From contig CATKHK010000083.1 in the NCBI GenBank assembly GCA_949751835.1, forward strand, positions 1 to 64,000: a DNA stretch of 64,000 bases, given 5' to 3'. Under the pieces are notes generated by a model. That model was given only the letters and a program-made list of their open reading frames with translations. It did not search any database and was not told where the DNA came from. The stretch is from Blepharisma japonicum. Lineage: Eukaryota; Ciliophora; Heterotrichea; Heterotrichida; Blepharismidae. Numbering within the stretch: position 1 is the first letter of the stretch; every line of letters starts with the position of its first letter. The position numbers and the translations under genes were made by a program. Shown one piece after another: positions 50,850-64,000 of the stretch.

Positions 50850-51330
50850 ATCGATTGTAAATATTCATATTTTTATTGTAAAATTTTTTCTTATTACCAT
50901 TTTTTGTTATCTTAAATGCTGAAATTAGAATTAATATTAGATTCCAATTCAACCTCTCCCGATCCATAATGATTAGGATTGGACTACATAAAAAGGTTGC
51001 CCTGTAGTATTTACAGGCTGCTGCCTTATCATTTCAACTTCTTTTCCATGCATAACTAACAAATTTTCGTTATATTTCAGCCTTATATAAGTGCTCCATA
51101 CAATTTTAGTAAAAAAGAAATCAACTATGAAGAGGATTACAACAGCAAGAAGAGCAACAAAAAGCCCGTAGATACGAGCTTCAGCAGTAAATTTCATGAT
51201 TCTTATAACGATAGGTAAGTTTAATTCCACAATTTTGAATTGCTGGTATCTCTCAAATTTTTGGAAATTTGATTTAATGAGGCCTGTTAACCCTGGGATT
51301 GCAAAAATTAAGGCTGCAATATTAATAAAG

Positions 51331-51596
51331 GCGGGTTAACAAAATTAATCCAAAACATTAGGAAGTAGGTTTTTGAGAAATATCTAAAGTTCTCTTAGGA
51401 AGAAGATATTAAATTTATAAATAGTGAGGCAGAATAGAATAAATTTTTAATAGGATATTAATATCCTATTAAAAATTTATTCTATTCAGCTTCTCTATTT
51501 TTCCGAAACAGTCTTTACTTTTTTCTTCCTAAGACGCATTTCAGATATTTTTCAAAACCAGCTTCCTGATGTTTTGAATGATTTTCGTGAATCAGC
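51331..51596. mobile_element. Foldback MITE-like element
   Basis: Two arms of about 100 nt are inverted copies of each other with scattered mismatches: caaaacattaggaagtagg near 51351 matches the reverse complement of the sequence near 51555-51575, and cttaggaagaa occurs inverted at about 51396 and 51522-51535. The arms meet in a perfect 56-bp palindrome. There is no coding capacity. It lies inside tetraspan copy 2. Boundaries are estimated from where the inverted similarity fades (gcgggtt on the left, aatcagc on the right); an aaag on each side might be a target duplication, but this is weak. Confidence 0.65.
51432..51487. repeat. Perfect 56-bp palindrome at the element's centre
   Basis: Each half, 28 bp long, is the exact reverse complement of the other, with no spacer, centred between 51459 and 51460 (gatatt/aatatc). 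Single-stranded DNA or RNA from this site would fold into a long hairpin, extended by the imperfect arms outside it. Confidence 0.9.
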
Positions 51597-51808
51597 AAAG
51601 GCTTCCATCTCTAATCAGAAATCATATTGATTTAATTTTTTGCTGTGCTAATAGCTCCATATAGATAAAAGCTAGATAGTCCTAGAATAATATCGATAAT
51701 TGCAATTATTATGACTGCTGAATACAGAGTCATGCATAAGACTCTCTCATATGGCTTCCCGTAATAATTCAAACACTTCTCGTTGTCTGAATTTGAGCTG
51801 CTGTCCAT

Positions 51809-52301: not shown

Positions 52302-52904
52302 CTAAGCTAATGATTGGCTGTATTGAGTTTGGGATATTGGAATCCCATAAACAGGCTGAAATACATAATCTCTCCTTTGTTCCAACATCTGAGCAACCGC
52401 TTTTCCATGCATAACCATTAAAGTCTCGTTATTTCTTAATCTTACATTTGCACTTCATACAGTTTTCGTATAAATAAGCGATACTAATGTTCCAATTCAA
52501 ACGCCAACCAAATAAACCCACCCACACATATCAATTTCATCACAATATGTATATTCAAGAGGTCTGAAAATACAAAGTATAAAAAATTCTATAATTTTAT
52601 ATTGTGAGTAATATTTCAATCTCGAATGGTTAGCCTTCAGTATAGCACATATACCAAATATCCCAAAAAGCCCTCCTACGATTAGAAGTACCGGCCGTAT
52701 ATACATAAAAAGAGGTAGGGAAGCAATTTGCTCATAATTTCCCAATATAAATATGAGTGCTAAAACATTTATACATCCAAGCCCAATATCAATAAGTGCA
52801 ATAATTACAACAGCTAATTTTAGCGTCATGCATAAAAATCCTTCATAAGGTTCTCCACAGCATCTTAAGAACTCTTCATTTTCTCTATTTTCTCTTAAAT
52901 TCAT
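52302..52904 (-). CDS. Tetraspan membrane protein, array copy 3
   Basis: 200 aa from MNLRENRENEEFL to TAG at 52302-52304, with two TGA-Trp codons (one in TKTVWSANVRL, exactly where copies 1 and 2 have TGG). Four spans, the DMCG loop motif and the MVMHGK juxtamembrane block are all conserved with copy 1. N-terminal CGEPYEGFLCMTLK matches the GxPY motif of the other copies. Function unknown. The start is 110 bp from the divergent DHHC gene. Confidence 0.78.
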
Positions 52905-58214: not shown

Positions 58215-61200
58215 TTATGAAACTCCTGTTTTCTTGACGTTTGCTTCCCCCATAAATTCTTTGTATATGCCTGAAAACATCGACATTATTTCTTTATAAT
58301 TATTCCTTATTAGCAAAATCCCTGCTTTAGAATTCATTTGGCTTAATTCTATACTCATTTTTTTCTTCTGCTCCTCTTCTTCGTGATATTTCTAAATAGA
58401 TATTACTCTCTGAGCAATAATAGCTTCTTTTTCAATTTGCCTTTTTTTCTTGCTTCTTCAAACTCTCTGTATCATTCTTGCTGCAGTATCCATTTTTAGA
58501 TTCGTATTTGTTGCCTCTTCATGCTTCCTTCTATAATTATCATATGATGATTTTATATCTCTTAATTCTTCTTGCAGATTTGATAATTCTTTTTCTTGAG
58601 CTTTTATTTTTTTACAATTTGCAGCAATTTCCGTATCTTTTCCAGTGATTGCTTTTCGATTTTCCATTTTCATTCGTTCAACAGATACTTTTAGCATAAG
58701 ATTTTCGTGCTTTGAAGCGCTAATTTCAGCTGACAATTCTTTTTTACTTTCTTGGAGCTCATTTTGTGCATCTTCTATTTGTTTTTGCTTATTTCGGATT
58801 TCCTTTTCTTTATCAGAGATAATTTTTTCAATCTGCTTATTTTTATTTTCTAAATCTTCAATCTTTTGTTGGAATTCTTCATTTATTTTTGCAACTTTCT
58901 GATTTTCATATAATTTCTGCTCTAAATTTTTCTCTGTTTTTCGAAGTTGCTGTGCAATGTTTTCATTATATGCTTTGATCGAAGTGTTTTCATCTTCAAG
59001 AGTTTTCTTTATAGTCCTAAGTTCTTCAATGATTTCAGCTTGTTTTTCACCATTTTCTCGCTCTATTTCCAGATTTTCTTTCATTTCTCGATTCAATTTC
59101 ATTAGTGTATTAAATTCTTGATTAAGATTTTCAAAATCATTGCTGAGCTTTATAATTTCTAAGTCTTTAGTATTTATTTCTTTATTTTTAATTTCCAGAT
59201 ATTTTTCTAATTCAATTATTTTAGCATCAAGATCTGAAACTGACTGTTTTAATAATAAGATTTCACTTTTATTTGCATTTAATTTTGCTGTAAGAATAGA
59301 GTTTTCTTCTTTAAGTGATTGGAGTTCTGAATTAGTTCGAAATAGATTTTCTTTTAGTCTTAATGACTCTGCAGTTGCAGATTCCAAATCTTCTCCAAGT
59401 TTCTTGGTATATATTTTGTTTTTCATAGCTTCAATATCTTTAGTATTTATTTCTTTATTTTTATTATCCAAAGTTTTTTCTGCTTCAATTAGTTTACCAT
59501 TAAGCTCAGAAATCGATTGTTTAAATAATAAGATTTCATTTTTATATTCATTTATTTTTGCAATATGTTCATAGTTTTCTTCTTTAAACGATTTTAGTTC
59601 TGATATCGTTCCAAATAAATTTTCTTTTAGCTTTAGAGACTCTTCGTTAGCAGATTCCAAATCATCCTCTAACTTTTTTATATGCATTATGCTTTTGCTT
59701 ATTTCTTCATTTCTCATTCCTAACTCATTTTCTGCTTCAATCCTTTTGGCATCAACCTCAGAAGAAGAGAGCTTTATATGCGAAATTTCCCTTTCTTTTT
59801 CATTTATTTTTGATATAAGCATAGAGTTTTCCTCCTTGAGCGATTTCATTTCTGAATTTATCCTAGCTAAATTGTCTTTTAATTTTAAAGACTCTGCATT
59901 ACCAGACTCTAAGTCTGTTTCTAGTTTTTTTATATATAATGAATTTTTCAAAATGTCAGCAGCTTTCGAGTTTATTTCTTTATTTTTAATTTCCAAAGTA
60001 TTTTCTGTTTCAATCTGTTTGATATTGAGCTCAGAAACCGAAAGTTTTAATAATGAGATTTCATTATTATTTTCGTTTAATTTAGAGACATGCAGAGAGT
60101 TCTCTTCTTTAACAGATATAAGCTCTGAATTGATATCAGCTAAATTTTCTTTTAATTTGTTTGACTCTTTCATGGCAGATTCCAAATCTTGCTCTAGCCT
60201 TTTTATATATATTGAATTTTTCAAAATGTCTGAAGCTTTCGAATTTATTTCTTTATTATTAAATTCCAAAGTATTTTCTATTTCCATCTTTTTGGCTTCA
60301 AGCTCTGAAATTGAACTTTTTAATAAATAGATTTCATTTTTATTTTCATTTATTTTTGAAGAAAGTGATGAGTTTTCTTCTTCAGCTAATTGCAATTTCG
60401 AATTAGTTTCAGATAAATTTTCTTTTAGCTTTCTTGACTCTTCTATAGAAAATTCTAATTCTTCTTCTACTTTTTTTATATATGCTTTATTTTTTGTAAT
60501 TTCATCATCTTTGGCTTTTATTTCTTTGCTTTTAGCATCTAAAATTTTTTCAGCTTCAATCCTTTGGGCATTGAGGTCAGAAACAGAGATTTTCAATAAT
60601 GATATTTCATTTTTATTTTCATTTATTTTTGTGATAAGCATAGAATTTTCTTCTCTAGCTGATTGCAGATCTGAATTAACTCCACATAAATTTTCTTTTA
60701 ACTTTAGAGACTCTGCATTAGAAGATTCCAAATCTTCTTCAAGTCTTTGTATATTTATTTTATTTTTCACAATTTCATCATCTTTAGTAATTATTTCTTT
60801 ATTTTTATTTTCCAAAATATTTTCTGCTTCAGTTCTTTTGGTTTCGAGGTCAGATATGGAAATTTTTAATGATGAGATTTCATTTTTATTTTCATTTATT
60901 TTTTGAGTAAGCAAAGAGTTTTCTTCTTTAAGTGATTTAAGCTCTGAATTAGCTTCAAGTAAATTTTCTTTTAACTTTAGAGATTCTGAATTAGCAGATG
61001 TCAAATCCTCTTCAACTTTTTTTAAATATCTTATACTTTCTTCATTTTCAATAATAATTTTTTCTTTTTCACTTTCAATTAAGGAGTATTTTTTAGACAA
61101 AGAATCCAATTTATCAATTAGTTGAGATCTGTCTTTCATCATTTCTAATTTCTCATTTGTAAGAAATTCTATATTTTGCTTAAATTTTTCTCGGGAGTCT

Positions 61201-64000
61201 GCTTGTTCAGAATCTTTTAATTTTAGCTTCTCTTCATAATACCTTTTATTAGCTTCAATTTCTACTTCTTTCTGCTGAAGCTCTTCACCAAGCATTTCAG
61301 AATTGTATTTTTCTTTATTTATTGAAGACTTTAAACTTTCAAGCTCAATCTTGTAATTATTACATATAGTTTCGATTTCTTCTACTAAATTTTTCACTTT
61401 GCCGCTTCTTGATTCAGTGATTTTATTTCTAAAATTTGCTGTTGATTCTAAATTATCTAATTGAAATTTGTTTTGATTTTCAATAAAATCCTCTATATTT
61501 TTATTTTTATTTTCCAATCCTTCAATTTTTTTTTGGAAATCTCCATTTATTTTTGTTAATTCTTCATTTTCAGAAATTTTTTTCTCTAAATTTTTTTCTG
61601 TTTTTTGGAATTGCTGTGTAATGTTTTCATTAGTTTCTTTAGTAGAATTGTTTTCATCTTCAAGATTTTTCTTTATAGTAGTAAGATCTTCAATGATTTC
61701 AGCTTGTTTTTCACCATTTTCTCGTTCTATTTCAAGATTTTCTTTCATTTCGCGATTCAATTTCATTAGAGTTTTATATTCTTGGTTAAGATTTTCAAAA
61801 TCTTTGCTTAGCTTCATATTTTCTGAGTCTTTAGCATTTATTTCTTTATTTTTAATTTCCAAATTTTTTTCTGCTTCAATTTTTTTGATTTCAAGATCTG
61901 AAACTGACTGTTTTAATAATGAGATTTCGCTTTTATTTGCATTTAATTTTGCTGTAAGAGTAGAGTTTTCTTCTTTAAGTGATTGGAGTTCTGAATTAGT
62001 TCCAAAAAGATTTTCTTTTAGTCTTAATGACTCTGCAGTTGCAGATTCCAAATCTTCTTCTAATTTTTTTATGTATTTCACATTCTCTTCGTTTTCAACA
62101 GAAATTTTTGCTTTATCTCTAACAATAAATGATGTTTTTTTAGATAAAGAATCCAATTTATCAATAAGCTGAGATCGATCTTTCAATATTTCTACTTTCT
62201 CTTTTGCAAGGAATTCTATATTTTGCTCAAGTTTTGCAACTGTTTCAGCATGCTCAGAATCTTTGTTATTTAATTGTTCTTCGTAAGCTTTTTTATTTGC
62301 TTCAATTTCCATTTCTTTTTGTTGCAATTTTTCACTTATCGTCTCAGAATTACTTTTTTCTTTATTTATTGAAGATTTTAGATTTTCAAGCTCAATTTTG
62401 TGGTTATTGCACAAAATTTCTATTTCTTCTCTTAAATCTTTAATTTCGCTGTCCTTGGCTTTACTTTGTCTCTCTCTAGTTATTAATTCTTTTTTAGCTT
62501 TTTCAAGAACTTTAGAATAATCATTCATTTTGGATTTTATGGCTTGATTAATTTTTGCATTAATTCCTTCTTTAAGCATATTAAATTCTTTCCCACTGGC
62601 AAGCAGTTCATTCCTCAAGGCTTGTGAAAGCTCTTTTATTCCTTTCAAATTTATTTTCTTCAAACTCTTATTAACCTTTGCCTTTGTTGCTTCTAATTGG
62701 AGGGCTAAAAGTCTCGCATCTTCTTTAGTTTCTTTTAAATTTTCATTCAAAAGATGATTTTTTTCTTTTTCTGAGGCCAATTTCTTTTTGCTTTCATCTA
62801 TTTGATTTGATAATTCAGATATCCTGAACTGTCGATCATTATTCTCAGCCTCAAACTCAGTTTTGCTTTTTTTAACCTCATCTCTTAAAGACCTATTTTT
62901 ATTTTTTAATTCAATAATCTCATTTCTCATTTGATTGATATCTTGCTCTTGCTCAAGCATTAATTTATCAATTTCTTCTAAAAACGCTTTATGCTCGTCA
63001 TTTTTTTTATCCAATTTTGACTGATAATATGAATGGATTTTTTGAACCTCATTTTTTTTAAATTCATCAATCGCAGCTTGAGTGGATCCAGTTGATACCT
63101 GTTGGTTTTCTTGATTAAGTAGCTCAAGTCTTTCATTTTCACTTGTGAGAACTTCAATTTTTTCTTTAAGTTCCGTTATTTCTTCCATTAATTTTTGCTT
63201 GTCTATTATTCATAGATTTTCACCATCATTAAATTTATCAAGCTCAGCTTGCAGCTGAGCACACATAGCTCTATAGTCAACTTTTTTATTTATTTCAGGT
63301 CTATTTTCTACCTTCATTGCTCTAGAGCCAAACTGCAATGATGATATGCTTTCTTGAGCATGAGAAGAAGATGGCCCTATAGTAACGATTAAAGATGTTT
63401 TGGAATTTCCTCCTAAAGAGTCTTCTAATAAGCGTGTCAATTTAGAGTCACGAAAAGGGACATATTTTGCTTTTTTGTCTGCAAGTGCTTGAATACAGTT
63501 TCCTAAAGCTAACAATGCTAAGTTAATATTTTTCGCTTCATCAAGTCTGCTACCTACCGCTTTTGATTTTTTTACTCTTTCACTACCAGCTAAATCTACC
63601 AAATACAAAGTACTTCTAGTCATACTTTGATCAGGTGTTTCTCCTTGCTTTTCTAATGCTTCTAGCTCTTCTATTGTATATTTTTTTCTTTTTTCGAGTT
63701 TTACCATATAAACTGCATGAGATCTACTCGAATGAGAATTCATGCTTGTAAATGCTGTATTTCGGTTTCTGTCACCTATAACCATTAATTCCATGCATTC
63801 TTTGACAGTATTTACAGTGACCCATTGGACACCTGATAAATAAACCCCTTCGTCAGGGTCTTCTCTAATTTTCACTTGATTTTCATTGTCAGGAAATAAT
63901 AAGTCTTGTAGCATTTCCATATAAAGCTGGACAAAACCAACTTGTATTGAAAAGGTAAAGCCAGTATCTTCTTTTACGTGTTGAAAAATATGTTGAATTG
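58215..64000 (-). CDS. Giant kinesin with repetitive coiled-coil tail (5' end outside window)
   Basis: At least 1920 aa. Exons: 64000-58407 (continuing beyond the window) and 58391-58215, split by GTAATATCTATTTAG at 58392-58406. The visible part of the motor has SSRSH (switch I), DLAGSE (switch II), LALLALGNCIQAL and VPFRDSKLTRLLEDSLGGNSKT, all kinesin motor signatures. TGA-Trp at 63210-63212 links motor and tail. The tail is about 1570 residues of coiled coil built from repeats (see the repeat entries), ending in AARMIQRVWRSKKKRQ, an IQ-like calmodulin-binding motif whose Trp is TGA. Cargo and direction are unknown; the motor is N-terminal, so plus-end movement is likely. Confidence 0.9.
58392..58406 (-). 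other. 15-nt intron (kinesin)
   Basis: GTAATATCTATTTAG; phase 0; opens a 58-codon final exon after the IQ motif. Confidence 0.85.
59136..61016 (-). repeat. Seven tandem copies of a 91-residue coiled-coil unit
   Basis: Within the kinesin tail, seven units begin with forms of LEEDLESAN-ESLKLKENL and pass through KEENSxLxxKINENKNEIS and EAExxLExKNKEI. Units 2, 4, 5 and 7 count to exactly 91 residues (13 heptads) and unit 3 fits the same spacing; unit 6 is 84 (12 heptads). Numbering counts the separate copy at 61800-62063 as unit 1; unit 8 runs into another module. Nucleotide identity has drifted, so these are old duplications kept in register. Confidence 0.85.
61800..62063 (-). repeat. First, separate copy of the 91-residue unit
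   Basis: This copy (LEEDLESATAESLRLKENLFGTNSE...) is most like unit 8 at the other end of the array, sharing LTAKLNANKSEI. It sits in an A-B-C arrangement: A (62139-62417), B (here), C (about 61465-61800). The same A and C modules recur around the seven-copy array at 61089-61367 and about 58800-59136. Confidence 0.8.

Follow-up and report, generated by a model that had tools for sequence, protein, structure and literature searches.

Genomic context of the interrupted gene

One member of a tandem gene array within the first 64,000 bases of a Blepharisma japonicum contig is interrupted by a palindromic element of 264 to 266 bp, which raises the question of whether the element belongs to a mobile family, is germline-limited DNA kept in the somatic genome, or arose where it now lies. 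The DNA analyzed here (the window) is this initial portion of contig C83, which is 199,491 bp long and belongs to an assembly of 224 contigs and 45,185,585 bp. A triple-unit CCCTAACA repeat occurred 168 times in the assembly, compared with 0 times in a reversed control, and the first places listed included the ends of contigs C4, C5, C6, and C7. This unit is the telomere unit of Blepharisma stoltei, a species with a 41-Mb somatic assembly in which TGA is read as tryptophan (PMC9942806). Because these telomere repeats cap contigs, a somatic assembly of the Blepharisma type is likely, in agreement with an earlier note, made from the sequence of the window, in which the DNA was taken to look somatic.

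Three related genes lie in tandem on the minus strand, with the broken one (copy 2) in the middle (Table 1), and a protein search revealed a further relative on contig C7. The split in copy 2 is genuine, given that both of its parts matched an intact paralogue. Owing to a length difference of one nucleotide that lies outside the element, the two parts are read in different frames. This frame shift (between positions 51638 and 51332) is unexplained by the element and would be either a second lesion or a base-calling error. An intron of 15 to 16 nt was rejected as its source, as no GT start was seen by eye between the two frames.

No Pfam family scored above its cutoff for the three proteins tested (i.e., copy 1, copy 3, and the C-terminal part of copy 2). 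Copy 1 had no match, and the C-terminal part of copy 2 reached 13.7 bits for Flp_Fap, below the cutoff of 32.2. Copy 3 showed a subthreshold similarity to the FtsX-like permease family (E = 0.0002; 21.9 bits versus a cutoff of 25.5), which probably stems from its hydrophobic segments. The earlier placement of the element inside a tetraspan gene was accordingly upheld with respect to the splitting of a paralogous gene, the parts of which match the intact copy; "tetraspan" was unconfirmed and serves only as a description of hydrophobic segments, since no family exceeded its cutoff. Elsewhere in the window (58537 to 62286), the plus strand carries long, repetitive, Ser/Phe-rich open frames that appear to be the antisense reading of a minus-strand coiled-coil gene.

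Table 1. Coordinates of the element and of the surrounding gene copies in the window
Feature	Position	Strand	Basis
Copy 1, unsplit paralogue, 210 aa	48965..49594	-	Open frame and protein search
Copy 2, broken gene, whole	50973-51808	-	Protein search
Copy 2, C-terminal part, 119 codons plus stop, open, other frame	50973..51332	-	Protein search
Copy 2, N-terminal part, 57 codons, open	51638..51808	-	Protein search
Copy 3, unsplit paralogue, 200 aa, TGA = Trp	52302..52904	-	Open frame and protein search
Direct repeat AAAGGC, left copy (candidate target-site duplication)	51327..51332	+	Repeat-pair search
Direct repeat AAAGGC, right copy	51597..51602	+	Repeat-pair search
Inserted foldback element, 264 bp if AAAGGC is the target duplication	51333..51596	.	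Palindrome and direct repeat
Left palindrome arm	51336..51459	+	Alignment of arms
Right palindrome arm, reverse complement of left	51460..51591	-	Alignment of arms
Perfect palindromic core, 56 bp	51432-51487	.	Half-length of 28

An imperfect palindrome with a perfect core

The foldback structure and the perfect 56-bp palindrome described earlier were both recovered, the latter as the core of a larger, imperfect palindrome (51336 to 51591). Its inverted arms make up almost the whole element and abut without a loop. The arms are identical at 104 of 123 ungapped columns, with 4 indel events, and at 76 of 95 columns outside the core; BLAST, which counts gaps, gave an arm identity of 78%. Within the core, 28 of 28 pairs match (p = 0.0019, given the 80% identity of the outer arms). 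Predicted folding energies were -109.8 kcal/mol for the plus strand (z = -15.9) and -97.2 kcal/mol for the minus strand (z = -13.0), values equaled by 0 of 200 shuffles in each case. The palindrome is far above chance expectation.

Foldbacks were also scanned for (10-nt seeds, arms of at least 30 nt, and loops of at most 80 nt) in the window, in 24 ten-kilobase stretches (304 kb together with the window), and in short overlapping loci, for a total of 319,689 bases. The element scored 38.5, and only two other distinct places scored at least 18 (20.5 and 19.0); nothing comparable was seen in the 304 kb of assembly sequence scanned. One of these places (L014:5940-6129) is an A+T-rich foldback with 82-nt arms at 78% identity and a 22-nt loop, located 3' of an open frame, and the other is at L024:7536-7616. 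By eye, neither resembles the element. The longest open frame in the arms matched only itself in a protein search, which gave no sign of a coding origin.

A very stable fold on both strands is what would be expected of a hairpin RNA precursor under selection, such as a source of small RNAs directed against the paralogues. We regard this explanation as very improbable, as the arms match neither the paralogues nor any other part of the assembly. The transition mismatches would form six G-U pairs on the plus strand and three on the minus strand, too few to reveal a strand preference, and strand-specific RNA selection was set aside on these uninformative numbers. An assembly or library artifact (i.e., a foldback chimera) is hardly credible. 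The frame difference in copy 2 may hint at local base errors, but artificial foldbacks are expected to be nearly identical, whereas these arms differ at 19 of 123 columns and by 4 indels, and unrelated sequence flanks the element on either side.

Boundaries and the empty site

Direct repeats of at least 2 bases were paired across the element, with left copies starting at positions 51290 to 51345 and right copies starting at positions 51575 to 51665 (292 pairs). The two longest, both of 6 bp, were AAAGGC (51327 and 51597) and AAGGCT (51310 and 51598). The AAAGGC copies bracket the palindrome, 4 to 5 bases beyond both arm ends, and appear to be the best-fitting boundaries of the insert. An element of 266 bp (51331 to 51596) flanked by a duplication of 4 bp, AAAG, would fit equally well, and the total gain is 270 bp in either case. 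The chance of such a flanking repeat was 0.017, a post hoc value from narrow windows picked after the repeat had been seen; wide windows hold the second 6-bp repeat. Piggy-Bac-like TTAA boundaries (51336 and 51632) were rejected; the right TTAA is some 40 bases beyond the end of the arm, and joining the flanks there meets a stop.

The interval between the IDIILG and FKIVE motifs provided an estimate of the length of the empty site. It spans 458 nt in copy 2, or 188 nt after subtraction of the 270-bp gain, and 63 codons (189 nt), 64 codons (192 nt), and 67 codons (201 nt) in copy 1, copy 3, and the relative on contig C7, respectively. Because 188 nt fits the intervals of the unsplit paralogues, we favor an insertion. 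When the flanks are joined at AAAGGC, the frame of the C-terminal part is open across the junction; the frame of the gene stays broken, since 188 nt is one short of the 189 nt in copy 1. We hold with about even confidence that a single-copy foldback element of approximately 264 to 266 bp inserted into one of the tandem gene copies and broke it. Counting against an insertion, a one-off element without relatives is unusual for a transposon, 6-base repeats are not rare locally (AAGGCT being the second), and the frame shift of one nucleotide, whether a true mutation or a base-calling error, is further damage for which the insertion does not account.

The same repeat pairs bear on an internal eliminated sequence (IES). 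The earlier note had suggested that the element could be a retained or incompletely excised copy of such DNA. In the version considered here, the sequenced clone may have kept at this locus, in whole or in part, a palindromic IES ("MITIES") of the kind usually removed from the new macronucleus. Palindromic IESs are known in B. stoltei (e.g., repeat families 87 and 160), about three-quarters of the IESs in that species have TA in their repeats, and about a quarter are not TA bound, with 6,566 of approximately 40,000 bounded by non-TA direct repeats (PMC9942856). However, none of the 292 direct-repeat excisions restored a protein of paralogue length. The longest excision product had 177 aa (TT; 302 bp removed) and the longest TA-containing one had 170 aa (TAA; 323 bp removed), with 52 and 45 codons, respectively, in the motif interval, compared with 63 to 67 in the paralogues. 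Excision at AAAGGC, the repeat with the best fit, would not repair the frame, and this repeat contains no TA. Repeat-to-repeat excision that restores the gene thus found no support, although it is possible that the gene was already dying, in which case an IES within it need not restore it.

A Blepharisma IES is absent from most macronuclear (MAC) copies and is precisely excised between mostly TA-containing repeats, and neither property was found here. The element is present in the assembled consensus, yet published retention in MAC DNA is low, with scores of at most 0.02 (PMC9942856). We found no positive support for retention and consider it a doubtful explanation, albeit one with which the absence of other copies from somatic DNA is also compatible.

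Search for other copies in the assembly

The element had been called MITE-like in the earlier note, in which a lack of other copies was named as the result that would speak against the idea. In the 45.2-Mb somatic-type assembly, the whole element, the left arm, and the right arm each found only the element itself with a search method that skips common words. Patterns of the 44-nt core and the 27-nt half-core, with up to three mismatches, likewise found only the element. Two arm patterns with two mismatches hit 7 and 5 further weak places in the assembly, compared with 1 and 4 in reversed controls, and no contig was common to both patterns. When 25 stretches (304,000 bases) were scanned with a model built only from the arm sequences, it recovered both arms and then six matches with E values of 0.58 to 8.8. 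No further copy was thus firmly found, and no description of the element came up in searches of the literature, where searching by sequence is impossible.

In common with MITEs, the element is short and noncoding and has terminal inverted repeats. The AAAGGC (or AAAG) on either side is a candidate target-site duplication, given its post hoc chance value and the second 6-bp repeat in the wide windows. Many similar copies were not seen in the assembly, and the element could not be linked to any transposase, family, or terminal motif. Membership in a MITE family is not supported, because the assembly searches gave the element alone. A germline family could still exist, because a somatic assembly would miss most germline-limited repeats. 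The element therefore seems to be a solitary foldback insertion within a decaying gene copy rather than a proven member of a mobile family.

The lack of relatives of the element, arms, or core is also what would be expected of a local inverted duplication, produced by template switching during replication or repair and then lengthened and partly homogenized in place, without mobility. Template switching can create hairpins and homogenize inverted repeats, as published (PMC8794818 and PMC8604942), and the loopless, abutting arms and the perfect core would suit this origin. We nevertheless judge it rather unlikely. No source for an arm was found nearby or elsewhere in the assembly, a 270-bp gain between direct repeats resembles an insertion more closely, and arm drift in place should have damaged the parts of copy 2 more than is seen.

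Age of the arms relative to the gene

If the arms were identical at the start, their divergence outside the core amounts to 0.116 per arm (Jukes-Cantor). The parts of copy 2 contain 0 internal stops in 176 codons, and their length differs by one nucleotide. Under free decay to the divergence of the arms, a stop arose in 92 of 100 simulations (probability of no stop, 0.083). At the indel rate of the arms, about 11.1 indels would be expected in the parts of copy 2 (probability of at most one, 0.0002); this rate rests on four events, and the expectation becomes about 8.6 if 123 columns are used as the base instead of 95. Because the parts of copy 2 have no stops and few indels, the arms would have diverged where the gene escaped damage. 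The earlier suggestion of an older insertion fits the divergence of the arms and does not fit the well-preserved parts of copy 2.

The IES model also predicts less damage in the gene than in the arms, which would drift as excised DNA free of selection while the gene remained intact. We favor divergence of the arms before insertion over such drift in place under excision, a preference that presumes identical arms at birth; a palindrome that was imperfect at birth would weaken or remove the argument for recency. Both readings of the arm age would point to a germline history of the element.

Proposed history and significance

In the history that we favor, a preformed foldback element would have inserted recently into copy 2 and duplicated a short target, AAAGGC or AAAG. 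Divergence of its arms would predate the insertion and probably took place while the element resided elsewhere, and the likeliest source would be germline-limited DNA, which is invisible in a somatic assembly. The perfect core may be the product of hairpin-templated correction (i.e., template switching within the palindrome), by which the center would be homogenized while the outer arms drift. A more specific version, which we think unlikely, is that a palindromic germline-limited element (MITIES) has just escaped elimination, is retained somatically, and has newly pseudogenized one paralogue of an expressed family, with its core kept by the same kind of correction.

Should the element prove to be an IES that was retained or has escaped, the locus would provide a dated example of the passage from germline parasite to somatic lesion, and the intact paralogues beside it would serve as controls. 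Should it be no more than a solitary foldback insertion, the locus records an ordinary pseudogene-making event, with a neat palindrome that has a perfect center and drifted outer arms.

Comparison with known systems

The element resembles the palindromic IESs/MITIES of B. stoltei (families 87 and 160) in being a short palindrome inside a gene of the same type of ciliate. Those IESs are excised and repetitive (PMC9942856), whereas the present element is in a somatic-type assembly in which no other copy was found; it is also longer than the 153-bp palindromic class, and its best boundary repeat is free of TA.

BogoMITE, a Pogo/Tigger-derived element of B. stoltei, is likewise short, noncoding, and built with inverted repeats. 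It has a C-rich terminal repeat of about 30 bp and a TAA/TTA duplication (PMC9942856), whereas the present element starts with GGGTTAAC or GCGGGTTAAC. For the 18-nt end of the Bogo repeat, the assembly contained no exact match and 8 places with two mismatches, none of them on the contig of the window. Two of these near-matches (C38:415156-415173 and C38:415241-415258), both on one strand, are spaced 85 bp apart, with telomere repeats (C38:415631-415726) roughly 0.5 kb away; the pair may be a remnant of germline DNA close to a chromosome end. The ends of the element also differ from those of the Tc1-family element of B. stoltei, for which a 38-bp terminal repeat and a TATA duplication are described in the same paper; a 26-nt part of this terminal repeat was absent from the assembly with up to three mismatches allowed.

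Foldback (FB-type) elements share with the present one a structure composed nearly entirely of inverted arms and a short target duplication. The target duplication of FB elements is about 9 bp, compared with 4 to 6 bp here, and the present element has no family and no internal arm repeats that we could see. Its perfect center and imperfect outer arms are also those of quasipalindromes corrected by template switching, a process known from short inverted repeats and proposed here from one sequence.
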